Shown here in pieces: positions 2 through 23,800 of a stretch of DNA of 43,676 nt (within the stretch, counting starts at the first letter, position 1; each line of letters starts with the position of its first letter). The stretch comes from an uncultured Saprospiraceae bacterium. GTDB taxonomy: Bacteria; Bacteroidota; Bacteroidia; Chitinophagales; Saprospiraceae. The notes under the pieces were generated by a model. The model was not told the origin of the DNA, did no database searches, and was given only the letters and a program-made list of their open reading frames with translations. A program made the position numbers and the translations under genes. The DNA lies in the NCBI GenBank assembly GCA_937921525.1, contig CAKZUM010000001.1, positions 1 through 43,676 on the forward strand. The letters run 5' to 3'.

Positions 2-3000
2 ACTAACGATGATATTGATTCTACTGCAGATGATGATCCAACGGATGATGCGGGTGGTGAAGTAGGAGAAGATTCTGATGACCAAACAGACGGTGATGGT
101 ATAAATGACGAAGACGATCATGACCCTGCTATTGTAGAAATATTTGATCTTGCATTAAAGAAAACTACTACTGATATAGGTCCGTTCGCTTATGGGGATG
201 TGATGACTTTTGACTTTACTGTTTATAACCAAGGTAATATCCCAAGTACGAATATTGAAGTAACAGATTACATTCCATGTGGTTATGCCTTTGATGCTGC
301 CTTGAATCCAGATTGGAGTCTAGTTGGTACAGATGCTAAATACATAATTACAGATGTTTTACAAGGAGGGGATTCAGCTATCGTTTCTATCGACTTAATC
401 CTACAACCTTGCGATGATACAGGTGCTTGGAAAAACATTGGAGAAATTAGTGGAAGTGAAGATGACCAAGGAAACGATACGACCAATGATGATATAGATT
501 CCTTCGCAGATGATGATAGGACCAATGATGGAGAGATGGATGATAACATGACGGATGGTACGAATGCAGATGAAGACGATTCTGATTATGATGATTCTTT
601 TGATGAAGATGATTCTGATCCAGAAGTTGTTAGCATCTTTGACTTGGCTCAGATTAAAGAGATTGTTACACCGGGTCCTTATACTTGGGGAGATACTTTA
701 CAATATGCTATTACGGTAGTGAATCAAGGGAATATCCCAGCGACTAATATTACTGTAACGGATAATATTCCTGCTGGTTTAACTTATGATGCTGCTATCA
801 ATCCTACTTGGATGGGTGCTGCACCAAGTGTTACCAACACGATTACAGATACCCTCGAAATGGGAGATACTTCTGTTGTCTTTATCAATTTGATTTTGAC
901 ACAAACAGATGGTGGAAGTGATAACTATACCAACACTTCTGAAATCACGAGTAGTGAAGATGACAAAGGAAACGACACCACCGATGCCGATGCAGACGAT
1001 GATGACGGTGATGCTGATGACAATGCAAATGAAGAGGACAATTCTTTCGAGGATGGGGATGATGATTTAGATGAAGAATTTATTCGAATATTTGATTTAG
1101 CATTAAAGAAGACAACTTCGGCTACTGGTCCATTCTACTATGGCGATACAATTACTTTCGATTACACCGTTTATAACCAAGGTAACATCCCAAGTACCAA
1201 TATAGCGGTAACGGATTACACACCTTGTGGATATGCCTTTGATGCTAGTCTTAATTCTGATTGGTCTCTAAGTGGAACGGATGCAACAACGGTTATTACC
1301 GACCTAGTAGCTCCCGGAGATTCCATAATTGTTTCTATCAATTACATTGTAGAAGCTTGTGAAGAAATCACAAATTCTGCTTGGAGAAATACAGGAGAAA
1401 TTACCGCTAGTGAAGATGATAAAGGAAATGATACGAGCGATGAAGATGTGGATAGTACCACAGACAGTGATCCAAATAACGATGGAGATATGTCTGATAA
1501 CGATACTGATGGTAGCAATGGAGACGAGGATGATTCTGATTTTGAGTTAATTCAAATTTTTGATTTAGCACAGAAAAAAGAAATCGTCACACCTGGTCCT
1601 TATGCTTATAGTGATGTGATAACTTATGCAATCACCGTATACAACCAAGGTAATATTCCTGCGACTAATATTGGCGTATCGGATTTCATTCCTTCTGGTT
1701 TAATTTACGATCCTGCATTAAATCCTACATGGTCTGGTGCAGCTCCGATAGTAACAACAGTTATTACGGATACACTTTGGTCTACTGGCGATTCAACGAT
1801 TGTTTACATTGACTTAAGCATCGCCCCTACGAATGCTGGATTAGCAGGATATACGAATATTGCGGAGATAAATGGAAGTGAAGATGAGAAAGGAAATGAT
1901 ACTAGTAATAATGATGCGGATAGTAAACCAGATAATGATCCTACCAATGATAATGGTGGTATCGTTGGTGAAAGTAGCGACAATCAAGTCAATGGTTCTA
2001 GTGAAAATGATGAAGACGATCAAGATCCTGCACTAGTAGAAGTTTTTGATTTAGCGTTAAACAAAACTACTAGTACACCTGGCCCATATGCTTATGGAGA
2101 CATTATGACCTACGACTTAACCGTTTACAATCAAGGAAGTGTTGTAGCTAGTATTATTGAAATTAGCGACCATCTACCTTGTGGTTTTAAATTCTTACCA
2201 AGTAGTAATCCTACTTGGAATTACGATGCAGCAACGGGTCTTGTTACCACTACGATCAATTCTTTATTGCTAGGTGGAGATAGTATTACCGTTCAGTTAT
2301 TAGTAGAGATACAAGCGTGTGGTGGTACTGCATCTTGGAGAAATACTGCTGAGATAAGTGGAGCTACAGATGGCGAAGGAAACCCAGTTACAGATATTGA
2401 TAGTATCTCTGATAATGATCCAACGAATGATGGAGACATGGAGGATAATGCAATTGATGGAAGCAACGGAGATGAAGATGATTCTGATTTCCATGATATT
2501 GAAGTGTTTGACTTAGCATTCAAAAAGCAACTAGCACCAACGCAGGAATCACCTGTATTACCGGGTAGCGATGTGGCTTATCAAATGACTATTTATAATC
2601 AAGGAAATGTCGATGCTTTTGATATAACCGTCATTGATTATATACCTGATGGACTTGCTTTTGATCTTGCAGCCAACACAGCAGCAAGCGCAGGAAATAC
2701 AAATAATTGGAACTTGGTCGATGATGTTCCAACCTACATCATCAATACTTTGGCTCCTTTGGATTCTATAGTCATCAATATTACCTTCACTATTGACGGT
2801 GGCTTTAGAGGAACGGGTATTACTAACTTTGGAGAAATTGCTCATGCAGCAGATGCGCCTGGCGGACCAAATACTCCAGATGCAGACTCGAATGCAGATG
2901 GCGATATGGAGAATGATAATCACGCAGCAGATGATTCGGTCAATGGCTATGGGAACCAAGGTGGAGATGAAGACGATCACGATCCTGCATTCATTCAATT

Positions 3001-5260: not shown

Positions 5261-8200
5261 ATGAAAAAAACTACTTTGAAAAACAATTATCTAGTTTTTG
5301 TGCTCTCGATATTATTATTTTTTCAAATATCTGAAAAAATATATGGAGAGAATATAAACGCAGAAAATCTTTTTACTCCAATCACACAACAAGTTTTTGA
5401 AGACAGGGTGGAAACACTTCGTCTCTTACAAGAAAGCTATTCCATAGCCGATTGTACAGAAGAAAAACAACTCCAACAGAAAATATATAGCCATCGAAAG
5501 GCGATCATTGCGGATATAAAAACACAAGCAGGCATTGAGACAACTACAGCGTTTATGATGCCAGATCCCATTCCATGTCCAGAAATGCAAGTCATAGAAT
5601 TGCTAGGTGTTCCCGGCTTTGCAGAAACAGACGAATTAGTTATTTGTGGCGCACCAGATACCCTCGCCTTTTTGATTTTCATAGAAGAACCAGGTACGAT
5701 TTCTGGCACCCAAATGTCTGCCACTTTTTTACCCGGTATGCAATATGCTGGATTTGAATTGACTCATTATGGGAGTGGTACAATCTCTAATCTAGATCCC
5801 AATCCAAGTGCACCCAAGTTTTTATTGGAAGGAATTACCAATGGTGTTTATATTGGATACATTGGCGTAGAAGCTACCTGTGATGCTAATATCAATGCCT
5901 TTGAATATGAAGTAGATTTAGATTTTAGTTTTATATATGAAGACACTTTAGGGAATTTTCAAAAGTGTCGACAATCTGTCACGCCCATCCGAACGTACAA
6001 CTCTGTTATCAAAGATCCCGTACTCAATTATAGAAATGTACCCATCACCACCATTAATTCTTTAAGTACTGAATTTTGCACCAATATTCAGATTTCTCAA
6101 GATGGCATTGACGCCTATTTAACAGAAGTAGAATTTTCTATTTGTAATGTGGATTTCTCAAACGAAGTACAATTAAACAGCATTTCTGCAAATGGCACTC
6201 CTATTCCTTACACCTATAACGCTGCCGACTCTACCGTAAAAATGATTGTGTCAGATAATTTCTTTTTAGGAAATAGTAATGCCAATCCAGTAGATACTTT
6301 ATTCAATGAGTCTGAGTTTTTAAACATGCAAGTCTGCATGCAAGTAGATGAGTGCCCCACAGTCAATACTCAATTCATTAATTATAAAACAGCGTACTAC
6401 TGCCATGGAGATACTTGCCAAGTCATTAATAGAGCTAGTGAAATTCGAGTACGCCCTAATGATAGACCTGTTCCTATTGCAACTTCCAACTTAATACAAA
6501 TACCCGGTGTATGTGGAGCACCTGCCATTATGGAATTGACTTTAAAAAGCAGTGTATTAGATTCAGCAGGAGGAATTTTTACTGACTTATCTTTTGGTTT
6601 TGAAACCTGCGATCAATCTGCTTTAGACATCAGCAAAGTCACCATTGGTGGCACTGAAATAACAGCTGATAATTATGAATGGATAGACGATGATTTGAAT
6701 ATTGACTTAACCACTTTAACGAGTGATCCCGATGGAATAGGTAATGGTATTACAGATGCAGACGGCGATGGTTTTTTTGACGATTTACCGGGCGGACGTA
6801 TGTTGACGGTACGTATAGAACTTGACTTTATTTGTGCATTACCTCCTGATGCTGGCTCGATTGCTTGTAGTAGTCTAGATTGTTCTTTTGCTCAATTTTA
6901 TGTGCGAGCCAAAAGAGATTGTGGACAAGCTTTTAGCTTCGAACCAAACGTGGAAGATTTTAGTATCACCAATGGAGCTACCTATGTAAATTTAGGAAAT
7001 CAAGACTTAGTTAGTAATTCTTACTTTGCTTATAATTTTGGTAACACAAGGACGACAGGAAATACTTGTGCCAGCCCGATAGCTCCTAAAGTTAAAACGG
7101 TTGAGTTTTGCTATGTCTATGAAAGAGAGAATATAGAGCCTTGTCCAGCCGAAAATACTACTAATGAATTACAGGTTTTATTTGATGGTAATCCTTTGTT
7201 GGTCAACGATATTGTCTTTGTCCCTAGCTCTGGTTCAATGACCGTAAACGGAGTCACTACTCAATCTAATGTAACAGGAACTTTCACTGATCTTGCCCCA
7301 GATCAACGTTTGCTTTCGCTACCCATAGGGGAATTAAATGTAGGAGATACAGTTTGTTATATCTACCAGATAGAAGCAGATTCTGCTAGTTGCACACCAC
7401 CTATTTACATGAATGGTACTCACCAAGTAATTGAAACTTGCACAACAGACGGTTGTACTTGTAAGACTGTAAAAGCTTGTGATGTTGCACTTTTCAGAAG
7501 TGATCCTTCTAATTGTGGTTGTGAATGTGATATAGCAAGCGGTGCAAATATACAGCGTTGGAACTTGGGTTATACAGATGAGACCATGACCGAAAAAGTA
7601 AAAATAGAAGATGTCCCTATAGAAGACCGTACTCGATTCCTACCTTGCGATACCATGTATTATGAGGGCTGGATGACTTTTAATTCGCCAGAGTCAGTTG
7701 GGGAATTATACCAGTGGTATTTCGTTGCCAATATCACCAACATTGGCAGCAATGGATGGGGCGGAAATGACGATACCGAACTAATGATAGATGCTAGTGG
7801 TACAGAATTACTCGGCTTAGATTTTGCCAAACAAGGAGGGGCTGGAAAAGTTCCCATAGACATTAGTAGTTTCTCTGACTGTTTAGATAATCCGAATACA
7901 ACTGGTTCTACAGGTTTCTTTGCCTATGCGGCAAAAACGCCTTGGGATGATGTTACCTATAATACCCCTATGTGTAACTCTGGATATGAATACCATGACG
8001 GGAATTTGTTCGGTGTTTATTTTAGAAATTTTAATAAACTAGAAGATTGTAGAGGCACAGAAACAGCAAGTTGGGAAGAGGTAGATTGTTTGGATCAAAT
8101 TAAAGAAGCTTTTAATATAGAGATTGGTGACACCATTTATATGCGATGGTTATTACCACTAACAAAAAATGTAAAAGCTGCTGCAAACGAAATTGCCAAT

Positions 8201-11200
8201 CCAGATTTCACCTACAGAGATCCACAGATTCTAAATGTCGCTACTGGACATTTTTTAGATGAATTTGATTCGGATTGTTTATTAAGTTTATCGAACTGTA
8301 GAGAAAATAGCCCATTCCAAACCTTCTGCCCTGAAGGCATTAATGCCGTAACAGAAATGACCTTGGATGATTGTGGTGGGCAAGTCGAGCACTCTTTCAA
8401 TGTAGTGACTACCTCTCCTGTAAACTGGTTTACAGCCGAATACCGACCGTTCTTTACCTTAGAAGATATTCAGATACCTATGTATTCTCCACTCATCTAT
8501 TGTGGCAATGCAAAGATTGTAACTAAGGGTGGCTTGGAATACCCTTTGAATGTACAATCTATGACGAATCATAGTTGTGCAACCGTAGATGGACAAGAAT
8601 ATTGTACCGTATCAGAAGGAGATATAGGTACACTCACTTTCAATCCAGAGGCAGATGGCTACCCCGGATTAGGAGTAGGACTAGGTGGCTATGTAGATGA
8701 CTTTAAGATCGTTTATGATCTTTGTAAAATATGTCCATCTGAAACCCCAGACTTTTCAAATTATGAAATCACCTACGATTATCGAACTTGTGAAACACTA
8801 AATGGGAATTGTTTTAGATGTAACCAATCTACTACTGGCACTAGTAATGAATTACCTAATATTTGTGGAATAAATGGATCCGCTTTGGTTGATAGATTAG
8901 GCTATTATTATAATGTGTTAGAATTAGATACTTTATTCCGTTGGGAAGATGTCACCTCTGGAGATGTAGTCACTACAGATATTAGCAATGGCTTCCCTGA
9001 ATTGACACAAGAACAAGATCGAAATTTATTGTCAAGTACCTCTCCGGGTTCTAGTGAAGAATTAAATACCATCACCGTTTGTGCAGATGGGACAGATTCA
9101 ACTTTAGAAACCCACATGGGAATGCTTGCCAGTATCACTCTGACGAATAGTGTGGTATTCACAGGAGGCTATGATGCGGCTATGAATCCGTTACTTTTTG
9201 ATACCGTTTCTGTGAGTCCTACTACTACCACTTATGCTGTATTTTTACCTGATCTCGCTCCCGGTGAATGTACCGAATTCAAAATAGGAACGTCTTTACT
9301 CTTCTGCCCTACCCCACCCGATGTACCAGAAATTTGTATTACGACTACCTCTGGTTGTATGGGTCGTTCCATCATGGCAGCCTTAGCAGGAGAAACACAG
9401 GCGTGTAATAGTATTGAAACCTGTTATCAATATGTATTTGAGGAGTCTGGTATTCAAGCAGATTTTTTAACCCCTATCGAAGATGAAACGTATGCCCTGT
9501 GCGATACCATCCCAATGGCCGTATTGGTCAAAAATGTAAAGACCACCACTTTAACAGACATTGTATTAGATATTGATTTGCCCTTGGTCGGAATGGAAAT
9601 TATATCTGGTAGCTTCGAAGCTTCCTATCCAAATAGCGGAGATTTCTCGCTCCCCTTTTACTCCATTGTTGATCCAGCTATCAATGGGAATAATTTGATC
9701 TATACAGAAGATAATGACTTTAGTAATGCCATTCATAGCAATGGACTACCCGGTGTGACTAGTGCAGCAGATAGCAATTATGTACTCGTACGTTTCTTTG
9801 TAGAAACCAAATGTGATGAATTTATTTCTGGATCTCAAGCCACTTTTGTAGCTACTGCTACAGATCCTTGTAGTCCAGATATTTTAAGTTCTGGTATCGT
9901 TACTAGTAATCAAATGATTATTAACGGGGCAGATCCTGCTGACTATGGACAGGTACTCATTACCGCAAAACCATCCGAAGCATTTTGTGGACAAGAGACC
10001 CCTACTTTTAAAATAACAGGACAAAATATTTCGGAACAACCCTTAGGGGATAGTGTGACGATGTGTATCACCTTACCGACAGGCTTGACCTATCGACCGG
10101 GTTCTATGCGTTATATTATTCCTACCTCTTTGGATGTTGGAACAGAAATTATTACGGATATAAATGGGCAAACTCAAATTTGTTTCCAAGGTTTTGAGAA
10201 CATGCCAATCGGCGGTGCTTTTACTTTAAATTTTGAAGCTGACTTTGACACAGATGCTATCTGTGGAGACTATGATATACAAGTAGATACTAAAAATTTA
10301 GTAGAAGACGAATCCTGTACGGATGGAGGTCTATGTGATGTCTATGTACAATCCTCTGTCAACCCAACTTTCACTTTAACCTTAAAAGGTCCATTAGAGA
10401 CTACTGATATACAGTTGTTTAAAAAGTGTACAGGAACGGATGATCCAGTAACAATTTGTTATGAGGCAACACTTAGAAATCCCGGACCAGATTATATGGG
10501 GGATGTCTCTGTCAATTTACATGACGATATATTAGGAGATAATATCTTAGATTTTTATGATCCTATTTTAGGAGGTGACACTTATAATGATGTCTTTGTG
10601 GCTAGTGGTGATTCAATCACTTTAACAGGATGTTATACGGTAACGGAGATCAATGCTTGTCCAATAATTCTGGATATGGTTTATGACTCTGAATGTACTT
10701 GTAATCATTTGGCAACGCCTTACGCAAGTGTAGAACCAGAGTTCACAGCGATGTTACCACCCACTACCGTTCTTTGTCCCGGACAAGAATTAGGTATCGA
10801 AATTTGTGGGGATAATACACTCACTTTCAATCCTGCTAGTAATGTAAATACTAGAACGGTTGGAGATAGTACCTATATCAGTGTGATAGATAATTCTATT
10901 GTTACCCAATTATATTTCTCAGGTGGAATTGGAGAATGTACTTATGACGAAATTCGATTTATAAGAGGGGTAGAAGAATTTGATTTAGACATTTCTGACT
11001 CCATCACTTGTCAAAATCAAGTGGCTACTTTGGAGTTAAGTATTCCAATAGAATACCAAGACTATGTAGAAATACAGTGGTCGCCTACTACTAACTTGGA
11101 CGATCCTAATAGGATTGATCCAGATTTCCTTTCTGATACCCCCGGTATGTATTGCTATGAAGTAGCACTAACATTCAATGGCGGTTGTGTAAGAAGAGAC

Positions 11201-14200
11201 AGCGTAAAAATTGAAGTGAAACCAGTTGGACAAATGACTATCTCTGGCGATAATCTCATTTGTGCGCCCTATGAAACAAATACCTTAAACACCAACCCTG
11301 GCTATGATTATTATGAATGGTATTTATTAAATGGTGGTTTTGAAATCATAAAAGCTTCTACTCCAACAGAGGAATGGACTGGACCAATCGAACCCGGTAA
11401 ATATATTGTCAAAGGTTTCCGAAGCACAGACTTATGTCCAAGCGCATCGGACACCATTATGATTATGCAAGACGAATGTATTGATTTAGAATTAGAAAAA
11501 AATGTAGTCAATATTCCAACACCATTTATTATCGGTAGTCAAATAACTTATGAGCTAGTCGTTTGTAATAAAGCAGACCCTGCTTTGGACCCAGGCTATG
11601 ATGCATTCGATGTACAAGTAGCAGATCAATTACCCGGTGGTGTCACCTATGTCTCCCATACTCAAACTACTGGCAACTACAGTCCTACTCAAAATGACTG
11701 GGATATAAGTGTTATAGAAAATGGAACTTGTGATACCCTCTGGATAGACGTTACTGTAGAAGACTATGGCTGTACCATCAATGAGGCACAAATCACAAAA
11801 GCCGATAAAGAAGATATTGATAGCACCCCAAATAATGATGATGGCAACCAAAGCGAAGATGATGAAGATAATGGTAAGGTAGTCTTAGATACCTTCGACT
11901 TAGCATTAACCAAAAAGCTGAGTCCGATGCAAGCCGTTCCTGTCACCATCGGTAGCACGGTCACTTATGATATTGAAGTTTGCAATCAAGGACAAATAGA
12001 TGCTTACAATGTTGAAGTAGTAGATTACGTGCCAACAGGTATGGCAGTCACCGATCCAAATTGGACCGTTGGTAGCGTAGCTAATGAATATTTCCAAACA
12101 ATCCCAGGGCCTATTACGGTAGGAAATTGTCAGACTATAAAATTAGTAACGGAAGTCACTTCTATTCCTACAAGTGGCAGCTATATCAACTACGCAGAAA
12201 TCAATAAATCACAAGATAGCAATGGAGATAGTCCACCTGATATTGATAGTACTCCTGACAATGACCCCGCAAATGATGGAGCCGTTGAAGACGATGCAAC
12301 CGACAATACGAATGGAGACGAAGACGATCATGACCCCGCCGAAATAAAGGTCATCATGGTCGCTTGTCAAATAGCAAATAATAGTTTCGTGTGTCCAGAA
12401 ACGGCATTGGTCATGGAAGAGATCGGCATGAATAATGTCCGATGGAATTGGTCTGGACCCAATGGATTTACAAGCACCACACAAGGTGTCAATATCAATC
12501 CACCAATAGCGGGTACTTACGCTGTAACCGTTACCGATAATAATGGACTCACTACTACCTGCGAAGTAGAAATAGGTATTCATCCAGAGATGACTTTAAC
12601 GACTAGTCTAACTAATCCTTCTTGTTTTAAAGGTACAGATGGAGCAATTGATTTAACCGTTACAGGAGGTACTGGCCCTTTTACTTTTGATTGGACGAAC
12701 GATGGTCCAGATGCAACAGATGATGATACAGAAGATATTAACAACTTAGAAGCAGGCACCTATGGAGTCATTGTGACAGATGCCAATGGATGTATAAAAG
12801 AGACAAAAGTCACTCTAACACATCCTGACGAACTTGGCTGTAGAGTACAAGGTACAGATCTATTATGTAATGGGGATAATAGCGGCAGCATGGAAGTCCA
12901 AGCAAGAGGAGGCACGCTTCCTTACGAATATAGTTTAGATGGTGCACCATATCAACCAGGTACTTCTTTTACAGGGGTGGCCGCAGGGATGCACACCGTC
13001 ACCGTAAAAGATGCCAATGGATGTACTTCTACTTGTGAACTTACTTTAAAAGAACCAGAACTTCTTTCTTGCTCTATTAAAGCAACGGATGATAGTAGCT
13101 GTATAACAAATAATGGTTCAATCGAAACGATACCAACTGGCGGCACTAGCCCATATGAATTTAGCATAGATGGAACTACCTTCCAAAGGAGTAGTTTATT
13201 TTCCAATTTAGGCGCTGGAGATTATACGCTTACTGTAAAAGATGCCAATGGATGTATCACCACTTGTAGGGCGATACTCTCCGAACCAAGGCCTCCTGTT
13301 TGTACGATTACGACTACCGAAAATGTTACTTGTAAAAATGGAACAGATGGAAGCTTGATAGCCGAAGGTTCGTCAGGTAGTGGAGATTTTGAATTTAGCT
13401 TAGATGGAATGACTTGGCAAACTGCTGGAACATTTGACAGCTTAACAGCAGGTACTTATACCGTCACTATTAGAAATGTAGATACGCCAACTTGTACCAG
13501 TACCTGTACTACGATCATTACGGAACCAACTGTTTTATCTTGTTCTCTAACAGGTACGAATATTAGTTGTAATGGTGGAAGCGATGGTATCATTACCGTA
13601 GCGGCTATCGGCGGATTAGGAAATTACGAATACAGTATAGATGGTGGAGCAACTTGGCAACTTGGCAATACTTTTACTGGATTACCAATAGGCGATTACA
13701 CCGTTCAACTAAGAGATAACGACGATATTAATTGTATCACTTCTTGTGATATAACTTTGAGAGAACCACCTGTTTTGGCATTTACAACCAATGTGACACA
13801 GGTTGCTTGTAATGGAGATGCTTCTGGGGTGATTTTCGTTACGCCAACTGGTGGCACCGCCCCTTACGAATATAGCCTCAATGGCATGGCATGGCAACCG
13901 GGCAACATCTATGCAAATCTTACAGCAGGTAATCAAGTCATTACCGTAAGAGATGCCCAAGGATGTATTTTATCCTCCCTAATAACCATCACAGAACCGA
14001 GTGCATTGAGTTGTACTATCGTTTCTACGAATGCGACTAACTGTGGTATTTTTGATGGTACGATAATCGTCAATGCAGTCGGTGGTGTACCCACTTACGA
14101 ATACAGTATTGATGGAACGAACTATCAAGCTAGTAATTCTTTTACTGGATTAATGGCAGGTTCTTATATCATTTCTGTTCGAGATGAGAATGATTGTATT

Positions 14201-17200
14201 AGCACTTGTTCGGTAACGATCACCACACCCGATGCCCCATATTGTCAAATTTCAGCGGTCACACACGTAGAATGTTTTGGCGATGCTACAGGAAGTTTCA
14301 CGGTGATAGGAACAGAAGGAAATCCACCGTATGAATTTAGTTTAGATAGTACAAACTGGCAACCAACAGGAGCATTCAATAATTTAACCGCTGGTCAATA
14401 TACCATTTATATTCGGAATATTGGTAGTACCAATTGTATCAGTATGTGTGCGGTAGAAATAGAACAACCGACCCAATTAACTTGTCAATTAATACCAACC
14501 GATCCTCTTTGTAAAGATGGAACGGATGGCAACATAACAGTTCTGGCAACAGAGGGTACACCAGGCTATGAATATAGTTTAGATGGGAATCCATGGCAAC
14601 CTGATGCAGTCTTTTCTGGACTAGTAGCCGGCGATTATTCTATAACTATTCGGGATGCAAATAATTGTACAACTACTTGTGAGGTAACGCTAAGTGAGCC
14701 ACCTTTATTAACTTGTACGACTACAGTTGTTGATTTACTTTGTAAGGATGATGGGGATGGAATTATCACGGTAACAGGTATGGGCGGCACAGGTAACTAT
14801 GAGTACAACATAGATGGAGGTGCTTGGCAAACAAGCAATATTTTCTCTAGTTTAAGTGGTGGCGATTATGTACTAAACATCAGAGATGAACATAATTGCA
14901 TATCAACTTGTACCGCAAGAATTAATGAACCAACAACTCTAGTTTGTAAGCTCGTAGAAGTCGTTCCAGAATCTTGTGCCTTTAATGATGGAAGTATAGA
15001 AGTCATGGCTTCTGGCGGAACAGGTACACCTAGCTATAGCATAGATGGAGGTGCTACTACTCAAGCAACAGGTTTATTTACAGGCTTGACATTGGGCATA
15101 TATACCATTACGATACAAGATGAAAATAACTGTATAAGCACTTGTTCTTTTGAAATATTACCAGACTGCTATGACCTAGCTTTAGTTAAAAATCTTGCTA
15201 CACCAGGCCCATATAGTTATGGTCAAAAAGTAGTATTTGATATTGAAGTAATCAACCAAGGAAACATCAATGCAACGAACGTAGAAATCACAGATCATGT
15301 TCCTTGCGGATTTAGCTATGACCCAAGTGCATTAATAAATGTATCGAATAATTGGACGCCAACTGCGACAGCCGTTCCGATGAGTGTCATTGCTAATCTT
15401 CCTGCACAAACAAGAGATACTTTACAAATAGAATTAATCGTACAGGAATGTACAAATGCAAATGGCCATACTAACGAAGCTGAAATCAGTAGTGCCTTTG
15501 ATGAAAATGGAAACCCTGGTGAGGATGTGGATAGTACTACTGATTATGATCCAAACAATGATGTAGGAGGAGAACCTAATGGCCCGACTGACGATCAAGA
15601 AGATGGCGATGGCACGGTTGATGAAGATGACCATGATCCTGCTTTTGTAGAAATTTATGATTTAGCATTAACTAAAAAACTAGTTACACCTGCCCCATAT
15701 GCCTATGGAGATATTTTGGAATTTTCTATAGAAATTTGTAATCAAGCAGCCAGTCCAGTTCAAAATATTATAGTCTCCGATTATGTCCCAGTCGGCTATA
15801 GTTATGATGCTAGCTTGAATGTAGGTTGGACTGGAAGTGGGCCTACTCCTACCACTTTAAATTACAAACACACGACTCCTTTATTACATGGGGCTGACTG
15901 TATAACTATTCCTTTATTTTTAAAATTAGAAATGTCAAGTGGCATAGATGATTGGAAAAATATAGGAGAAATCAGCAGCTTTGAAGATGAAAACGGCAAC
16001 CCACAAAACGATGTAGATAGCACCCCAGATAGCAACCCGAATAATGATGGCGATATGGAAGACAACGTGACCGATGGCACCAATGGAGATGAAGATGATT
16101 CCGATCCAGCAGGTCCAGAAATAATAGATATTGCTTTAATTAAAACAACTACGGACACGGGGCCTTTTGTGTATGGCGATACGATTGTCTTTGACATTCA
16201 GGTATTCAATCAAGGGAATGTTGATTTATATAATACAGTTATCAATGACTTCATTCCTTGTGGTTATCGCTACTTAGGTACGAACTCTTCTTCGTGGATG
16301 TTTGACTCTGGTACTGGTATTGCTTCCACTACTTTAGCGGGTCCGATTGTTGCAGGAGATAGCACGACTGTTTCCATTGTACTAGAAGTGCAAGCTTGCG
16401 AACCTGCCTCTACCACTGCATGGACGAACATAGCAGAAATAGATTCTTTTGAAGATAAAGAAGGAGAAGATCGAACAGACGATGATATAGATTCTGATGC
16501 AGATGGTGACCCAACGAATGATCCAACAGATGATAATACCAATGACAACAATAATGGCGATGAAGATGATAATGATCCAGAAACAATTGTCCTATTTGAT
16601 TTAGCTCAAATCAAACAAGTGGCAACACCTGGCCCTTACGCTTACGGAGATATTATAGAATATGAAATTACTGTTATCAATCAAGGAAATGTAGCTGCTC
16701 AAAACATCTTAATCTACGATCATATTCCTACTGGATTAATTTATGATCCTAGTTTAAATTCAATTTGGTCTGGCGCAGCCCCTACGGTCAACACCACCAT
16801 TTCCAGTATTTTATTACCGGGAGAATCTACTACTGTTAGTATCTTTTTAAGCCTTGCACCAAATAGTGCAGGTAATGATAATTATACCAATTATAGTGAA
16901 ATTGGCGGTAGTGAAGATGGAGACGGAAATGATACTACCAATAGCGATGTGGATAGTACTCCAGATAACGACCCTAGCAACGATGGAGGGGGCGAACCAG
17001 ATAGTCCTTCAGACGATCAAACAAATGGAGATGGAACTAATGATGAAGACGATCACGATCCTGCTGTTATTGATGTCTTTGACTTAGCCTTAAAGAAAAC
17101 AACTTCGGCAGTCGGCCCATTTGCTTATGGTGATGTTATTACTTTTGATTTCACAGTATACAATCAAGGAAACGTACCGAGCACCAATATTGAAATAACA

Positions 17201-19717
17201 GAACAAACACCTTGTGGCTATGCCTTTGATGCTGCCCTAAATCCTGATTGGTTGCCTACTGGAAGTTCTGCTACTACGATCATTAGTGATACCTTACAAG
17301 GTGGAGATTCTATTATTGTCTCTATTAATTTTATTATCCAAGCTTGCGCAGATGTAGGTGCATGGAAAAATACAGGCGAGATTAGTGGCAGTCAAGATGA
17401 TGAAGGAAATGATACGACTGATTATGATATTGATTCAGATGCTGACAACGATCCAACGAATGATGGCGACATGGAAGATGACGCAACAGATAATGAAAAT
17501 GGAGATGAGGATGATTCTGATTTTGAAGAAATACAAATTTTTGATCTCGCATTGATTAAGCAATTAGCACCTACTCAACGAACTCCTGTGTTAGCGGGTT
17601 ATCCTGTCGAATATCAAATGACCATTTTCAATCAAGGCAATGTTGATGCTTATGATATTACAGTAGTCGATTATATTCCAGAAGGCTTACGTTTTAGAAT
17701 TGCAGATAATACAAACGCAAATACAGGAAATGTCAACGATTGGATGTTAGTCGGCAGTCTCCCAACTTACACAATTGATTATCTACCTTCTTTAGGCTCC
17801 GTAAATTTCAATATTCTATTCACTATTGAACCTGATTTTAGGGGAGAGAGTATCACTAACTTCGGAGAAATCACACATGGATCGGATAAGCAAGGTGGAT
17901 CAAATACACCTGATGCGGATTCTGTATCAGATGATGATGAACAGAATGATACCTTTGCTGATGACGATGACATTAATGGAGATAGTAAAATTGGTCAAGA
18001 TGAAGACGATCATGATCCTGCTGTTATTTTCATTATCCCTATTGAGGATATTGTGATTATCGGAGATACAAGTATTACCGTTTTAGATACTATCGTAACC
18101 GATACGATAAGCGATATAGATCCTGAAGCAACGCCCGTATTTGAAGAAGAAATAGAAGAAGTAGTAGATTGTAGCAAATTCCCTGCTTACTGTTATCATG
18201 GGCTAGCGATTGAGCTGATGCCGATGGGTATGGTCGAAACTTGGGCTAGTGATATAAGTGTCAATGACTTCTCACAATGTCCAGATTATCAACTAGGTTT
18301 ATGGCATGAAAGTATGCCGATGAAGCAACCGACTACCCTTGCGGAAGTGCGCGCTTTACCAACTAACTTAGTCTTTACTTGTGCAACTTTAGGAAATCAA
18401 GAAGTACAATTATATATCACTGATCCTGAAGGTAATTGGAACTTCTGTGAAACCTATATTAATGTCCAAGACAATAATAAGGGCTGTGTGGCAACTCAAT
18501 CTACCGATGCCACTAACGCATTGTTAGGTGGCCAAGTAAATACTTGGAAAGGAGATGCTGTACAAGAAGTTTTGTTGAGTACCACTCAAATAGATTATAT
18601 GACTACTCATGATGGGTTCTATCACTTTGAGTTACCGATGGAAGAAAGCTATACCGTTACACCGCAAAAGAATCATATTCCGTTGAATGGTGTAAGTACT
18701 TTTGATTTGGTGTTGATGACAAAGCACATCTTAGGGGTTCAGCCTTTTGACAATCCATATCAATGGATTGCAGCAGATGTGAACCAATCGAAAACGGTTA
18801 CTGCTTTTGATTTAGTGCAGTTAAGAAAAATGATTCTTGCGATTGATACTGAATTTACGAATAATACCAGCTGGCGTTTTGTGGAAGCTAATTATGAATT
18901 TACTACAGATAATCCACTATCAGAGAACTTCCCTGAACAAGCCCATATTAGTAATCTAAGTAACAATATGGTGATGGATTTTGTGGCAATAAAAATCGGA
19001 GATATTAACGGAAACGTTAGACCGAATGCCTTCCACCAAGCAACACCAAGAAATAGTGCGGAAGTATTTGAAATACAAGTTGCTGATCAATTCTTAAAAG
19101 CAGGGCAGACCTATGAGATTGACTTGCGAGCAAAGGACATCAGTAAAATACAAGGCTACCAATTTACGGTCAATACTAAAAATATAATGATCGACCAAAT
19201 ACATGGGGCATTAATGACGACAGAAAACTTTGGACTCAATAACTTAGATGCAGGTAGAATTACAGTAAGCTGGAATCAACAACCGAACTACTTAGTAAGT
19301 GAAGAAAAACTATTCACAATTCAGTTACAAGCAACTAAGGATACTAGAATGAGTGAGGTACTCCGATTAAATAGTCACCCAACTGTCGCAGAAGCGTATG
19401 ACTTGGAGGATAATATAATGGAGGTACAATTACAGTTCACTAACTATGATAGTACAACCGATTTTGACTTAGCACAAAATCAACCAAATCCATTTAGAAA
19501 CCAAACAAGCATCGGATATACTTTACCTGTTAACAGTTCTGTAGAATTGATATTAAGAGATGAAGCTGGTAGAGTGATTCAGGTAATAAAGCAAGATGGT
19601 AAAGCTGGATATAATGTCATTCAATTAAATGAATTGGAGACTGCACCAGGATTTATTTACTATCAGTTGATTACTAAATTTGGAACTAAATCTAAAAAGA
19701 TGATTAGAGTGGAATAA
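5261..19717 (+). CDS. Giant (4818 aa) T9SS-exported surface/adhesin-like protein: signal peptide, Cys-containing N-terminal half, DUF11 pair, 11 SprB-like repeats, six further DUF11 modules, shared C-terminal cassette
   Basis: Uninterrupted ORF; N-terminus MKKTTLKNNYLVFVLSILLFFQISEKIYG looks like a signal peptide; repeat motifs YEYSIDGxxWQxxxxFxGLxAGxYTxxxRDxNxCxSTC and FDLALxKxxxTPGPYAYGD; C-terminal T9SS CTD. Confidence 0.95.
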   Translation: MKKTTLKNNYLVFVLSILLFFQISEKIYGENINAENLFTPITQQVFEDRVETLRLLQESYSIADCTEEKQLQQKIYSHRKAIIADIKTQAGIETTTAFMMPDPIPCPEMQVIELLGVPGFAETDELVICGAPDTLAFLIFIEEPGTISGTQMSATFLPGMQYAGFELTHYGSGTISNLDPNPSAPKFLLEGITNGVYIGYIGVEATCDANINAFEYEVDLDFSFIYEDTLGNFQKCRQSVTPIRTYNSVIKDPVLNYRNVPITTINSLSTEFCTNIQISQDGIDAYLTEVEFSICNVDFSNEVQLNSISANGTPIPYTYNAADSTVKMIVSDNFFLGNSNANPVDTLFNESEFLNMQVCMQVDECPTVNTQFINYKTAYYCHGDTCQVINRASEIRVRPNDRPVPIATSNLIQIPGVCGAPAIMELTLKSSVLDSAGGIFTDLSFGFETCDQSALDISKVTIGGTEITADNYEWIDDDLNIDLTTLTSDPDGIGNGITDADGDGFFDDLPGGRMLTVRIELDFICALPPDAGSIACSSLDCSFAQFYVRAKRDCGQAFSFEPNVEDFSITNGATYVNLGNQDLVSNSYFAYNFGNTRTTGNTCASPIAPKVKTVEFCYVYERENIEPCPAENTTNELQVLFDGNPLLVNDIVFVPSSGSMTVNGVTTQSNVTGTFTDLAPDQRLLSLPIGELNVGDTVCYIYQIEADSASCTPPIYMNGTHQVIETCTTDGCTCKTVKACDVALFRSDPSNCGCECDIASGANIQRWNLGYTDETMTEKVKIEDVPIEDRTRFLPCDTMYYEGWMTFNSPESVGELYQWYFVANITNIGSNGWGGNDDTELMIDASGTELLGLDFAKQGGAGKVPIDISSFSDCLDNPNTTGSTGFFAYAAKTPWDDVTYNTPMCNSGYEYHDGNLFGVYFRNFNKLEDCRGTETASWEEVDCLDQIKEAFNIEIGDTIYMRWLLPLTKNVKAAANEIANPDFTYRDPQILNVATGHFLDEFDSDCLLSLSNCRENSPFQTFCPEGINAVTEMTLDDCGGQVEHSFNVVTTSPVNWFTAEYRPFFTLEDIQIPMYSPLIYCGNAKIVTKGGLEYPLNVQSMTNHSCATVDGQEYCTVSEGDIGTLTFNPEADGYPGLGVGLGGYVDDFKIVYDLCKICPSETPDFSNYEITYDYRTCETLNGNCFRCNQSTTGTSNELPNICGINGSALVDRLGYYYNVLELDTLFRWEDVTSGDVVTTDISNGFPELTQEQDRNLLSSTSPGSSEELNTITVCADGTDSTLETHMGMLASITLTNSVVFTGGYDAAMNPLLFDTVSVSPTTTTYAVFLPDLAPGECTEFKIGTSLLFCPTPPDVPEICITTTSGCMGRSIMAALAGETQACNSIETCYQYVFEESGIQADFLTPIEDETYALCDTIPMAVLVKNVKTTTLTDIVLDIDLPLVGMEIISGSFEASYPNSGDFSLPFYSIVDPAINGNNLIYTEDNDFSNAIHSNGLPGVTSAADSNYVLVRFFVETKCDEFISGSQATFVATATDPCSPDILSSGIVTSNQMIINGADPADYGQVLITAKPSEAFCGQETPTFKITGQNISEQPLGDSVTMCITLPTGLTYRPGSMRYIIPTSLDVGTEIITDINGQTQICFQGFENMPIGGAFTLNFEADFDTDAICGDYDIQVDTKNLVEDESCTDGGLCDVYVQSSVNPTFTLTLKGPLETTDIQLFKKCTGTDDPVTICYEATLRNPGPDYMGDVSVNLHDDILGDNILDFYDPILGGDTYNDVFVASGDSITLTGCYTVTEINACPIILDMVYDSECTCNHLATPYASVEPEFTAMLPPTTVLCPGQELGIEICGDNTLTFNPASNVNTRTVGDSTYISVIDNSIVTQLYFSGGIGECTYDEIRFIRGVEEFDLDISDSITCQNQVATLELSIPIEYQDYVEIQWSPTTNLDDPNRIDPDFLSDTPGMYCYEVALTFNGGCVRRDSVKIEVKPVGQMTISGDNLICAPYETNTLNTNPGYDYYEWYLLNGGFEIIKASTPTEEWTGPIEPGKYIVKGFRSTDLCPSASDTIMIMQDECIDLELEKNVVNIPTPFIIGSQITYELVVCNKADPALDPGYDAFDVQVADQLPGGVTYVSHTQTTGNYSPTQNDWDISVIENGTCDTLWIDVTVEDYGCTINEAQITKADKEDIDSTPNNDDGNQSEDDEDNGKVVLDTFDLALTKKLSPMQAVPVTIGSTVTYDIEVCNQGQIDAYNVEVVDYVPTGMAVTDPNWTVGSVANEYFQTIPGPITVGNCQTIKLVTEVTSIPTSGSYINYAEINKSQDSNGDSPPDIDSTPDNDPANDGAVEDDATDNTNGDEDDHDPAEIKVIMVACQIANNSFVCPETALVMEEIGMNNVRWNWSGPNGFTSTTQGVNINPPIAGTYAVTVTDNNGLTTTCEVEIGIHPEMTLTTSLTNPSCFKGTDGAIDLTVTGGTGPFTFDWTNDGPDATDDDTEDINNLEAGTYGVIVTDANGCIKETKVTLTHPDELGCRVQGTDLLCNGDNSGSMEVQARGGTLPYEYSLDGAPYQPGTSFTGVAAGMHTVTVKDANGCTSTCELTLKEPELLSCSIKATDDSSCITNNGSIETIPTGGTSPYEFSIDGTTFQRSSLFSNLGAGDYTLTVKDANGCITTCRAILSEPRPPVCTITTTENVTCKNGTDGSLIAEGSSGSGDFEFSLDGMTWQTAGTFDSLTAGTYTVTIRNVDTPTCTSTCTTIITEPTVLSCSLTGTNISCNGGSDGIITVAAIGGLGNYEYSIDGGATWQLGNTFTGLPIGDYTVQLRDNDDINCITSCDITLREPPVLAFTTNVTQVACNGDASGVIFVTPTGGTAPYEYSLNGMAWQPGNIYANLTAGNQVITVRDAQGCILSSLITITEPSALSCTIVSTNATNCGIFDGTIIVNAVGGVPTYEYSIDGTNYQASNSFTGLMAGSYIISVRDENDCISTCSVTITTPDAPYCQISAVTHVECFGDATGSFTVIGTEGNPPYEFSLDSTNWQPTGAFNNLTAGQYTIYIRNIGSTNCISMCAVEIEQPTQLTCQLIPTDPLCKDGTDGNITVLATEGTPGYEYSLDGNPWQPDAVFSGLVAGDYSITIRDANNCTTTCEVTLSEPPLLTCTTTVVDLLCKDDGDGIITVTGMGGTGNYEYNIDGGAWQTSNIFSSLSGGDYVLNIRDEHNCISTCTARINEPTTLVCKLVEVVPESCAFNDGSIEVMASGGTGTPSYSIDGGATTQATGLFTGLTLGIYTITIQDENNCISTCSFEILPDCYDLALVKNLATPGPYSYGQKVVFDIEVINQGNINATNVEITDHVPCGFSYDPSALINVSNNWTPTATAVPMSVIANLPAQTRDTLQIELIVQECTNANGHTNEAEISSAFDENGNPGEDVDSTTDYDPNNDVGGEPNGPTDDQEDGDGTVDEDDHDPAFVEIYDLALTKKLVTPAPYAYGDILEFSIEICNQAASPVQNIIVSDYVPVGYSYDASLNVGWTGSGPTPTTLNYKHTTPLLHGADCITIPLFLKLEMSSGIDDWKNIGEISSFEDENGNPQNDVDSTPDSNPNNDGDMEDNVTDGTNGDEDDSDPAGPEIIDIALIKTTTDTGPFVYGDTIVFDIQVFNQGNVDLYNTVINDFIPCGYRYLGTNSSSWMFDSGTGIASTTLAGPIVAGDSTTVSIVLEVQACEPASTTAWTNIAEIDSFEDKEGEDRTDDDIDSDADGDPTNDPTDDNTNDNNNGDEDDNDPETIVLFDLAQIKQVATPGPYAYGDIIEYEITVINQGNVAAQNILIYDHIPTGLIYDPSLNSIWSGAAPTVNTTISSILLPGESTTVSIFLSLAPNSAGNDNYTNYSEIGGSEDGDGNDTTNSDVDSTPDNDPSNDGGGEPDSPSDDQTNGDGTNDEDDHDPAVIDVFDLALKKTTSAVGPFAYGDVITFDFTVYNQGNVPSTNIEITEQTPCGYAFDAALNPDWLPTGSSATTIISDTLQGGDSIIVSINFIIQACADVGAWKNTGEISGSQDDEGNDTTDYDIDSDADNDPTNDGDMEDDATDNENGDEDDSDFEEIQIFDLALIKQLAPTQRTPVLAGYPVEYQMTIFNQGNVDAYDITVVDYIPEGLRFRIADNTNANTGNVNDWMLVGSLPTYTIDYLPSLGSVNFNILFTIEPDFRGESITNFGEITHGSDKQGGSNTPDADSVSDDDEQNDTFADDDDINGDSKIGQDEDDHDPAVIFIIPIEDIVIIGDTSITVLDTIVTDTISDIDPEATPVFEEEIEEVVDCSKFPAYCYHGLAIELMPMGMVETWASDISVNDFSQCPDYQLGLWHESMPMKQPTTLAEVRALPTNLVFTCATLGNQEVQLYITDPEGNWNFCETYINVQDNNKGCVATQSTDATNALLGGQVNTWKGDAVQEVLLSTTQIDYMTTHDGFYHFELPMEESYTVTPQKNHIPLNGVSTFDLVLMTKHILGVQPFDNPYQWIAADVNQSKTVTAFDLVQLRKMILAIDTEFTNNTSWRFVEANYEFTTDNPLSENFPEQAHISNLSNNMVMDFVAIKIGDINGNVRPNAFHQATPRNSAEVFEIQVADQFLKAGQTYEIDLRAKDISKIQGYQFTVNTKNIMIDQIHGALMTTENFGLNNLDAGRITVSWNQQPNYLVSEEKLFTIQLQATKDTRMSEVLRLNSHPTVAEAYDLEDNIMEVQLQFTNYDSTTDFDLAQNQPNPFRNQTSIGYTLPVNSSVELILRDEAGRVIQVIKQDGKAGYNVIQLNELETAPGFIYYQLITKFGTKSKKMIRVE
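11480..12350 (+). repeat. Two DUF11-type modules upstream of the SprB-like array
   Basis: IDLELEKNVVNIPTPFIIGSQITYELVVCNKADP and FDLALTKKLSPMQAVPVTIGSTVTYDIEVCNQGQIDAYNVEVVDYVP, with acidic linkers. Confidence 0.82.
12590..15169 (+). repeat. Array of about 11 SprB-like repeats (~75-80 aa each)
   Basis: Recurrent pattern C...(V/S)xCxxGxDGxIxVxxxGGxxxYEYSxDGxxWQxxxxFxxLxAGxYTxxxxDxNxCxSTCxxxxxEP, counted by eye as 11 units. Confidence 0.85.
15170..18030 (+). repeat. Six DUF11-type modules with acidic linkers
   Basis: Starts include YDLALVKN 15170, YDLALTKK 15656, IDIALIKT ~16126, FDLAQIKQ 16595, FDLALKKT 17078 and FDLALIKQ 17540. Confidence 0.87.
17540..19717 (+). repeat. Shared C-terminal cassette, copy 2 (2178 bp including stop)
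   Basis: FDLALIKQLAPTQ... to ...KSKKMIRVE*; same length as copy 1; 6 mismatches counted in the 165-nt stretch 4151..4315 vs 19184..19348. Confidence 0.92.
19463..19714 (+). other. T9SS type A C-terminal sorting domain (ORF2)
   Basis: FDLAQNQPNPFRNQTSIGYTLPVNSSVELILRDEAGRVIQVIKQDGKAGYNVIQLNELETAPGFIYYQLITKFGTKSKKMIRVE. Confidence 0.9.
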
Positions 19718-19752
19718 TCGGATCAAGAAAATAGTAATATATTAATAATTGG

Positions 19753-19787
19753 AGTAGTCTCACTTTGGATGGGACTACTTTTTTTTT
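19753..19787 (+). terminator. Rho-independent terminator after ORF2, paralogous to 4724..4757
   Basis: AGTAGTC (19753-19759) / GACTACT (19773-19779) followed by a T-tract to 19787. Confidence 0.82.
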
Positions 19788-20388
19788 GCCTTCATCGGAA
19801 ATACATTTGGTTAAAATTTTACTTTTCTTGAAAAAAATAAATTTTGACCAGAATAGCGTCCTGTATGAAGCAGAAAAAACATCGCTTATAACAAAAAAAA
19901 TCAGTTACAAAACGGCAAATATAAACTACACAACAATAAATACAAATAAATTTTTCTGTATAAAACATTGTAGTCGAAGAGTTCATAAAATAAAGACGAT
20001 AAATACATTTATTATTTTTTTATATTAAAAATATTTTTTATTGTAAAAAAATAAATTCCTTATTTTGTCACTCTTTGAATCGTAAATCATTGTAAATCAA
20101 ATAATAACAATTAAAAAAAAACTTTTTTACTGTCACAAAAGAAGTTCCACCTAACAAAAGATAAATTCCTTATGTCTTAGATTTGTTCTATCAATTTGTA
20201 TTACCCCCACCTACTATCTCCCACTCGCTATTATAGAGACATGTCATTGGGCAAACCATCAGTAGTATTTTTATTTAGAGATACGGAGCAGTACCATGCT
20301 TTGTAAAGATCGAAACATATAAAATATATTTTAATTTTATTAACACTCTAATAAATATACTAAATCTTTTCCAAAAATAATCTACTAG

Positions 20389-20528
20389 ACACATTAGTCA
20401 AAACTAAGTTAGATACTTAGCTCTATTTCTGACAAGCCTACAATTTTAATAAACACAACACACATTAGTCAAAACTAAGTCCTGTACTTAGCTTTTCTCT
20501 AACAAGTCTACTTTTCAATAAACACAAT
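20389..20528. repeat. Two-copy tandem direct repeat, 71-bp period, each with a 6-bp inverted repeat
   Basis: ACACATTAGTCAAAACTAAGT starts at 20389 and 20460; CTAAGT-tagat-ACTTAG (20404-20420) and CTAAGT-cctgt-ACTTAG (20475-20491). Confidence 0.8.
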
Positions 20529-20533
20529 ACAAC

Positions 20534-20562
20534 AAAAAAAGCCAGGATAAAAATATCCTAGC
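20534..20562 (-). terminator. Minus-strand rho-independent terminator-like signal
   Basis: On minus strand: GCTAGGATA-TTTT-TATCCTGGC (9 bp, one G-U wobble) followed by TTTTTTT. Confidence 0.65.
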
Positions 20563-20600
20563 TTGAAGCATAAGTCCTGCAAGAGGACTCTTTTCGATAC

Positions 20601-20635
20601 AAAAAAAACTGCTAAAATAGTACCAACTATTTTAG
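20601..20635 (-). terminator. Second minus-strand terminator-like signal
   Basis: On minus strand: CTAAAATAGT-TGGT-ACTATTTTAG (10-bp perfect stem) then CAG and TTTTTTTT; the stem is AT-rich. Confidence 0.55.
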
Positions 20636-20655
20636 TAAACTTTAATGGTAATGAC

Positions 20656-20730
20656 TTAATGATAAATGAGTACTCGTTTTATCACGATTCTAGTGGTATC
20701 GTCTGTCTCGTTTGAATGTTCTTTACCCAT
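20656..20730 (-). CDS. Possible 24-aa small ORF upstream of a minus-strand terminator-like hairpin
   Basis: Minus strand ATGGGTAAAGAACATTCAAACGAG...ATTTATCATTAA = MGKEHSNETDDTTRIVIKRVLIYH*. Supported only by position; could be chance. Confidence 0.2.
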   Translation of the reverse strand: MGKEHSNETDDTTRIVIKRVLIYH

Positions 20731-20800
20731 TTTTCTACTCTTGCGGACTTACAGCTTTACATTAATATAATTTTATAAGAAATTGTAAACTGTAATCACC

Positions 20801-23800
20801 ATGCAACAAAATGTTACTCGTTGGAGGAATTTGAATGCTATTAAACATTTAAATCCGCTTCCAAAAAAAATTAAAAGTACAGCACACCAAAAAGTGTTCC
20901 CTGAATTTAACAATGTGCTTTCTTATCAATTAGTCTACTCATTCGTTTTTAGGGCTTTGATATGCTTTATACTAGTTGTAGCTAACATTTCCTCTTTAAC
21001 TGCTCAGATTTCGCCAAACTTTGTAAATCAAGATCTGTATCCAGGCGCCGTAGGTTCGGTCACTGTTACAATACCTCCTAGCTCAAATCCGGGAGATTTA
21101 GTCATGGTTTTTATTGGAACGGATGATGATGGTGCTATTACAGAACCTGCCAGCTTCAGTAACTTATACGAATTTTGGACTGGAACAGCAGGACCAACTG
21201 CTGGTGTATATTATCGAATAATAGATGGTACCGAGGACCCTACCTATAGTTTTTCTTTTCCTTCCGAACCCACAGTGGTTACGACTATAAGATTTGACAG
21301 GGATAAAATAGATTCCGCCAACCCCATACATGCTATGGCAAATAATAGCGGTACTTCTAATAATCCGCAAGCTCCTTCTATTACTACTGGTATTGAAAAT
21401 CTTAGCTATTTTCAATATGTAGCTATAGATGGTGCTAGCGCTGGTGTCTTAAGTTCGAACTCAGCGACAGCTACCATACTTGCGACCGATCAAAGTGGTA
21501 ATTCCGGAGGAGTAGAAACGATGTTGGTATCAGAAATACAAGCGACTGCTGGTGCCACACCAATGGGTAGCTTTAGTTTTGCTAGCGAACAATGGGCAAC
21601 TGTTGCGTTCGCTTTAAATCCATCTCCTTTAGAAATTACTGGTCAAACTGGAGGCGATTGTAATAATGCTGCCGCTACCTTAACACTTGACTATGAAGCA
21701 GCCAATGCTGCGGGTACCTTTGAGTTAAGAGACCCTGCCAACGCTATCATCGCAACTGAAGCTTATTCCAGCACAACTGGTTCCATTTCCTTCAATTTTA
21801 ATGTAACAACCAATGGCGCTTACACCGTTCAAAATCAAGGAGCCCCATTGAATACCGCAACGGCTTATTATTATCCAACTGATATAGATTCTGATAATGA
21901 TGGGGTTTGTGATTTGAATGATTTAGATGATGATAATGATGGTATTTCGGATATAGCAGAAAATGCTATTTGCACTGCATTCGATTACACCGTAGTCGCT
22001 AATAAACAAAATATAGAACTATCAGCTACAGCTAACACATCTGGAGATATCCAAGTTTTATTAGATGGAAATGCTTCCAATAATAATTTTTATTACCCTG
22101 ATGTTTCTATTGTTGACAAAGAAATTGTCCGCTTAAAATTTCCAAAACCATTGGTGTTAACAGGTATTGAATTTCAAATTGGTGACAGTTATATGTTCAA
22201 TACTGGAGCAACAACTAGAATGCAAGCTAGTTCTGATGGTACCAGTTGGATAGATATATCTCCTGACTATGTCAAAATGCGACCTCCCAATAATACACCA
22301 GGCGTTATTAGTTCTGCTCCTCATGCAGAGACTTTCCAATGGTCTAATTCCACTCCGTATCAGTATTATAGATTATATGGAATAGCTGGTAATACCAATC
22401 AAAATCCTTGGATCAATGAATTACATTTTCAAGTAAGCAATGGCATATGTGATTTAGACCAAGATGGAGTTCCGAATCAACTAGATCTTGATTCTGACAA
22501 TGATGGGATTCCTGATAACGTAGAAGGTCAACCAACTTTAACTTATGTTGCACCAAATAATGATACACCCGCGCAATACCTAACGAATAACGGAATAAAT
22601 TCCGCTTATGGAACTGGCTTAGTACCGCCTAACCAAGATGGTGATTTTTGCGAAGATTTTTTAGATATTGATACAGACAATGATGGTACGGAAGATAAGG
22701 AAGAATCGGGCTTACTATTAACAGCAGTTTTTGGTGCTAATGGGCTAGATAATAATTTAGAAGGTGCAGATGACTACAGCGATGCTAACGGAAACATTAA
22801 TGATCCTAAAAATGACTTAGCGGGCTCAGATCCTGGAATTGCGGAAGTATATTATCGTCAAATTCCAACCCCTGGTGGAGTAGCTTTAGGTTTAGAATTA
22901 TGGACCCTTCCAAACTCCATTACCTACGATGCAACGAATGATAATATTATTACTAGAGTAGAAGATTTTTCGGGTACCATAGCAGCGGATCAGACTTATG
23001 GGTTATTCGACTTCATCAGTGGAGATCCTAAAATTATAGAAGCAGGCATTAATTTCAATCCAAACATTGAATTTGATGGGAATGATTGGTTCAGAAAAGA
23101 AGATGGGTTTAATACCAATACCTGGACAGAAGGAGAACGGTTCACCGTCATGGCAGAAAACGAAGAGGGCTATAATGGCAACAATGGTTTTGTTACTGAT
23201 TTTGCTGCAAAAGCAGGGGGCGCACATTATACTTTTGGTAATAAAGGTATTTATCATCAATTTGGTTCTAGTGATAGACATTCTTGGAATAGCACTACTG
23301 GAGCCAATCTAGAATCAAATGGAACCCACCAAGGCTTTCTATTTGATACCCGTAGTTATTTAATTGACAATGTATGGTCCGCTACCAACGATTGGGGAAA
23401 TGACGTTAATGGAAATCCAACCTACCGAGATGCCACTAACACCCCAAATTTTGCGATGACCCATTTCCATTGGGGAGCAGTACATAGTGCTACCTATTAT
23501 GGAAATTCTCCAGAAGTCTTTTTCTATTCTCGAAAGGTAAATGACCAAGAACGACTCCGAATTAATACTTACCTGGGCATCAAATATGGTATCACTTTAG
23601 GCAGTGAAACCAATTTAGTAAATTATCTAGATTCTAAAGGAGAGGTCATTTGGACAGCAAATGCAGACTACCAAAATAATATTGCAGGTATCGGACAAGA
23701 TAATGCTTCTGGCTTATCCCAAAAACAATCGACGACCATCAATGCTACTAATAATGTGGTCATGTATTTAGGGGATCATACAGGTACCGATTTACCTGCC

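Follow-up and report, generated by a model that had tools for sequence, protein, structure and literature searches.

Conserved block between ORF2 and ORF3

Does the gap between two giant secreted-protein genes, ORF2 (4818 aa, carrying SprB repeats as well as DUF11) and ORF3, whose 1533-aa product has no Pfam match, contain a gene of its own? For the window, i.e. the whole 43,676-nucleotide stretch of Saprospiraceae DNA analysed here, the initial annotation had proposed a minus-strand small transcript in this gap, divergent from ORF3 and encoding an sRNA or a small peptide, on the basis of two terminator-like hairpins and a 24-aa ORF. Both minus-strand hairpins with T runs were present (20564-20539 and 20635-20612), and a terminator scan of positions 19500-22000 yielded five terminator-like sites compared to 1.2 ± 1.2 in shuffled sequences. 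Comparison with related genomes strongly supported a divergent minus-strand gene, which we infer to be transcribed. It spoke for an sRNA, in that the promoter-like box and the terminator are conserved and paired bases show compensatory changes, and against a peptide.

A DNA search found the stretch 20531-20627 at 72-97% identity in other genomes of the genus; the intergenic sequence around it was mostly not common to the relatives. The conserved unit was a 93-nt block on the minus strand (20626..20534) consisting of promoter, two-hairpin RNA and terminator. Conservation started at the -24 box and stopped at the U run, and the flanks differed except in the closest relative, G007, which was 97% identical over the RNA. 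A covariance model (R1) built from eight copies gave the window copy 112.5 bits and detected ten copies in six of the nine genomes of the genus, nine of them beyond the window in five of the eight other genomes examined, with E-values of 1e-4 to 1e-17 for the further copies. Up to three copies occurred per genome; G002 had three, and both G005 and G007 had two. Eight of the ten were intact, while G005b and G007b had decayed, with the -24 GG lost and the structure weaker or partly gone.

The covariance model produced no convincing copy in the remaining three genomes of the genus, which, like the others, are incomplete MAGs, nor, with strict first-pass filters, beyond the genus in 298 genomes of the family. 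Two out-of-genus matches with E-values of 0.05-0.1 looked like ordinary terminator hairpins 3' of genes and were rejected. An exact-pattern scan of GTDB genomes returned model-confirmed matches from this genus only, plasmids, phages and viral contigs held no match to the RNA, and the window and seven related loci gave no match above the gathering threshold in Rfam 15. The RNA is a new family of an already known general kind and, as far as tested, appears to be restricted to the genus.

A putative sigma-54 promoter

The sigma-54-type promoter TTGGTACTATTTTAGCA was assigned to 20610..20626 on the minus strand (TTGGTAC-N5-TTAGCA) by conservation and spacing. The -24 GG lies at 20624-20623 and the -12 GC at 20612-20611 with 10 nt between them. 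YTGGTAYNATTTTRGYW opened the block in all eight intact copies, in which TGGTA-N2-ATTTT-R-G was likewise invariant. GG-10-GC was seen in the window, G007a, G005a, G008 and G003, and GG-10-GT in the three G002 copies. TATCG or a near version of it, the predicted +1, began roughly 12 nt beyond the GC/GT at a nearly fixed spacing (4 nt more in G003). Together with the TATCG spacing, GG-10-GC/GT has the arrangement of a sigma-54 -24/-12 promoter and its putative start site. The box matched 9 of 12 positions of the general sigma-54 consensus with GG and GC fixed. An equally good sigma-54 site appeared in 98 of 2000 shuffled versions of the intergenic stretch, so the box is convincing only through its conservation.

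RpoN (PF04552) was encoded in all nine genomes of the genus. Furthermore, the region upstream of groES carried a conserved -24/-12-like motif throughout the genus (L104-L112), TTGGYAYA..ATGAT / CTGGTATA..TTGAT, exemplified by TTGGCATAAAGAATGCT in G001 and TTGGCACAGGAAATGAT in G000 and listed also as TTGGCATAAAGAATGCTA (G001), TTGGCACAGGAAATGATA (G000) and CTGGTATAAAAGTTGATG (G006). We assign the promoter to sigma-54 because the box is conserved, RpoN is present in every genome and groES has a similar motif. Sigma-54 promoters have an enhancer site about 100-150 nt upstream. A possible activator site, the inverted repeat CTTAAT..ATTAAG, was clear at roughly -90 to -135 in G002a, G002c and G005b only, and was not found in the window. 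The groES motif agrees with a transcriptome study of Flavobacterium psychrophilum (PMC9723704), which placed both groES and Rfp36, a putative regulatory RNA, under sigma-54 promoters.

The upper of the two hairpins, 20601-20635, had been read as a terminator. It overlaps the promoter and does not hold up in this role. Its stem (20612..20635, minus strand) comprises 10 bp, almost all A-U, followed by T8, with -9.2 kcal/mol and a z-score of -3.0; the terminator scan omitted it because it has too few G-C pairs. The full 10-bp stem occurred only in the window and G007a, i.e. two of eight intact copies, an 8-bp version in G002a, and the other five intact copies lacked it. Of the two proposed terminators, the lower one alone was conserved as such.

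Structure of the RNA

The small RNA is predicted to be transcribed from 20599 to 20534 on the minus strand, giving about 65 nt from TATCGAAAAG... to the U run. Start to terminator (20600-20532) folded with -23.7 kcal/mol and a z-score of -4.3, which none of 200 shuffles reached. Hairpin 1 (GAGUCCUCUUGCAGGACUU, 20572..20590, minus strand), overlooked in the initial annotation, showed compensatory change in two of five modelled pairs with 96% of cells paired. It is joined by the linker AUGCUUC (20565..20571, minus strand), a candidate base-pairing region conserved in the alignment and unpaired in the fold, to the intrinsic terminator AAGCUAGGAUA-UUUU-UAUCCUGGCUU with its U run (20534..20564, minus strand), which was found by the terminator scan and is conserved. 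The terminator hairpin (20564-20539) has 11 bp and a T run, with compensatory change in 6 of 11 pairs and 97% of cells paired. The earlier reading of 20534-20562 as a terminator was correct: it is a normal intrinsic terminator, conserved together with its U run.

Over the two hairpins 8 of 16 pairs showed compensatory (double) changes, and 96.8% of cells were paired in the ten copies (0/500 shuffles). The covariation score was 0.251 compared to 0.100 in shuffles (0/500), measured on an alignment that was fitted to the model and is biased toward the structure. The signal was lost when the partners were slid by 1-3 nt, and compensatory changes such as AAGCCTTGATT/AATCAGGGCTT in G003 were visible in the raw sequences. 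The comparison indicates that the RNA structure is under selection.

Genomic setting of the copies

RNA copies adjoined ORF3 homologues in two relatives, at 64% identity in G002 and at 82% over 332 aa in G007, and the G003 copy adjoined an ORF2-like C-terminus (76%). The neighbor of G005b was an SdrD-type protein of 2802+ aa, and those of G005a and G008 were ordinary metabolic genes. The RNA often, yet not always, adjoins genes for giant secreted proteins. A same-strand gene followed 0.6-0.8 kb beyond the RNA in G002b/c, G005b and G007; the neighbor was on the opposite strand in the window, G003, G002a, G005a and G008. Because the downstream neighbor varies in strand and kind between loci, the RNA is not the leader of one gene, and a leader or riboswitch role was rejected. 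Judged by sequence only, the RNA has its own promoter and its own terminator and does not lie within a single mRNA. Comparison between the loci shows it to be independent of any one downstream gene.

Companion elements in relatives

In the relatives the RNA was usually paired with a further element, comp1. Seven units carried its conserved core on the opposite strand, 0.2-0.5 kb upstream of the RNA (L069:8478-8535, L072:8654-8711, L068:7838-7863 and 9677-9737, L067:2040-2075, L070:7274-7338, L071:3636-3668). The core was near-invariant over 24-30 nt with a 26-nt 5' part, RGCAARAATAGTCTTTACCATACTTT (opposite strand), and was followed by a terminator hairpin. The stem of this hairpin varied with pairing kept (GTCCCAATC/GATTGGGAC, GTCCCAGTC/GACTGGGAC, GTCTCAGTC/GACTGAGGC). 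Without a match in Rfam, comp1 looks like a second, divergent conserved small RNA. A third conserved block, comp2 (TTTTAATGATTCTCTGGAAAG), followed the RNA at a distance of about 300 nt (L069:9101-9121, L072:9329-9349, L067:2766-2783, L070:6715-6728, L068:10325-10340). Units stood in tandem in G002 and G007, and the order of the three blocks was fixed. Neither comp1 nor comp2 was detected in the window, and pairing between RNA and comp1 was no better than in shuffles in six of seven units. That the RNA and comp1 make up a two-RNA module, a sigma-54-switched control unit often beside giant secreted adhesin genes, is a tentative idea about which we have more doubt than confidence.

Interpretation and alternatives

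We consider it probable that the block is a stand-alone minus-strand gene for a non-coding RNA of about 65 nt with a sigma-54 promoter, most likely acting in trans in the RpoN response. RNA polymerase with sigma-54 (RpoN), assisted by an enhancer-binding activator, would use the -24/-12 promoter at 20626-20610 and begin transcription near 20599. The product would fold into a short hairpin and the intrinsic terminator, leaving a 5' tail (UAUCGAAAAG) and the AUGCUUC linker unpaired, and through both it may base-pair with mRNAs within the RpoN response. We infer the dependence on sigma-54, the activator, the pairing mode and the targets; pairing with the mRNA starts of the three flanking genes, ORF2-ORF4, was no better than in shuffles.

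The main competing view of the promoter, that the same RNA is transcribed by a sigma-A or ECF sigma factor, is rather unlikely in our judgment. The box is imperfect at 9/12 and has GT at -12 in three copies, yet a correctly placed TAnnTTTG -7 box, the sigma-A consensus of Bacteroidota (PMC9723704), was missing, and the GG-10-GC spacing is paralleled at groES in the genus. It is improbable that the block lacks an independent RNA function and is conserved only for terminating transcription or as a bidirectional insulator between neighboring genes. Its last hairpin is indeed a good intrinsic terminator and the block is intergenic, but a terminator alone needs no invariant upstream box, TATCG start, extra hairpin or linker. 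Moreover, ORF2 has its own plus-strand terminator just past the stop (19751-19781), and no minus-strand gene of the window requires termination at the block.

Spread rather than function could account for the conservation if comp1, RNA and comp2 formed a small intergenic cassette that is mobile or has been duplicated. The presence of up to three copies in a genome, the tandem arrangement in G002 and G007, the fixed three-block order and the decayed copies might suggest this. The compensatory changes in the hairpins, however, indicate selection on the RNA. The unit flanks had no common ends by eye, the spacers varied in length and sequence, plasmids, phages and viral contigs gave no match, and the window copy stands without detectable comp1 or comp2. 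We give the cassette a slim chance. A minus-strand small-peptide gene or type I toxin-antitoxin locus is very improbable. The 24-aa ORF that had prompted the peptide proposal does exist (20656..20730, minus strand), but it lies 5' of the promoter and is not conserved; a search of the G007 locus found no counterpart at the same place, although this relative is 97% identical. Nor did inspection reveal a conserved reading frame inside the RNA of about 65 nt.

Relation to known small RNAs

Qrr and CrcZ are sigma-54-dependent sRNAs of proteobacteria, short and stand-alone with a -24/-12 promoter and an intrinsic terminator. The window RNA, as predicted from its sequence, shares this layout with them and likewise with GlmY, another sigma-54-dependent proteobacterial sRNA (PMC7073468). 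It differs from all three in being much shorter and from another phylum, and it had no Rfam match. Closer in phylum are RNAs of F. psychrophilum described in the transcriptome study (PMC9723704). Rfp36 is, as the window RNA would be, a putative regulatory RNA of Bacteroidota with a -24/-12 promoter. We liken the two by description and claim no homology; as far as tested, the window RNA is a different one, restricted to its genus. Rfp36 is expressed together with exported proteins and the sprB gliding operon. Rfp18 resembles the window RNA, again by description, as a structured, genus-conserved Bacteroidota sRNA, and its predicted targets include secreted proteins. The F. psychrophilum RNAs have a median length of 176 bp as compared to about 65 nt here.

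The small RNAs of Saprospiraceae seem to have been studied hardly at all, the mentions that we found in the literature being incidental. For a Bacteroidota sRNA under sigma-54 the literature support found consisted of one transcriptome entry, Rfp36 (PMC9723704). A compact RNA that has a recognizable promoter and a conserved structure and lies beside giant SprB-repeat/DUF11 proteins offers an entry into the regulation of surface proteins in these bacteria.

Further features of the surrounding sequence

The plus-strand terminator directly after the stop of ORF2 (19751-19781) is strong, with 12 bp and a T run. Upstream, the adjacent giant genes at 200-4684 and 5261-19717 share, by eye, a near-identical C-terminal region of several hundred residues. 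A pair of direct repeats (ACACATTAGTCAAAACTAAGT...), each about 71 nt long and containing a small inverted repeat, occupies 20384-20531 immediately 3' of the RNA terminator.

On the plus strand before ORF3, the stretch 20738..20776 (CTCTTGCGGACTTACAGCTTTA...) is similar to the RNA when both are read in the same sense. Its local alignment score was 18, compared to a mean of 9.6 in shuffles (0/500) and to 16 for the best of 1078 other stretches of the window. The core was kept in G007 (score 14, reached by 2% of shuffles) and not in G002. The stretch is possibly a decayed inverted copy of the RNA. In the leader of ORF3 (20738-20800) it is followed by a TTACAG..CTGTAA hairpin just 5' of the start codon.
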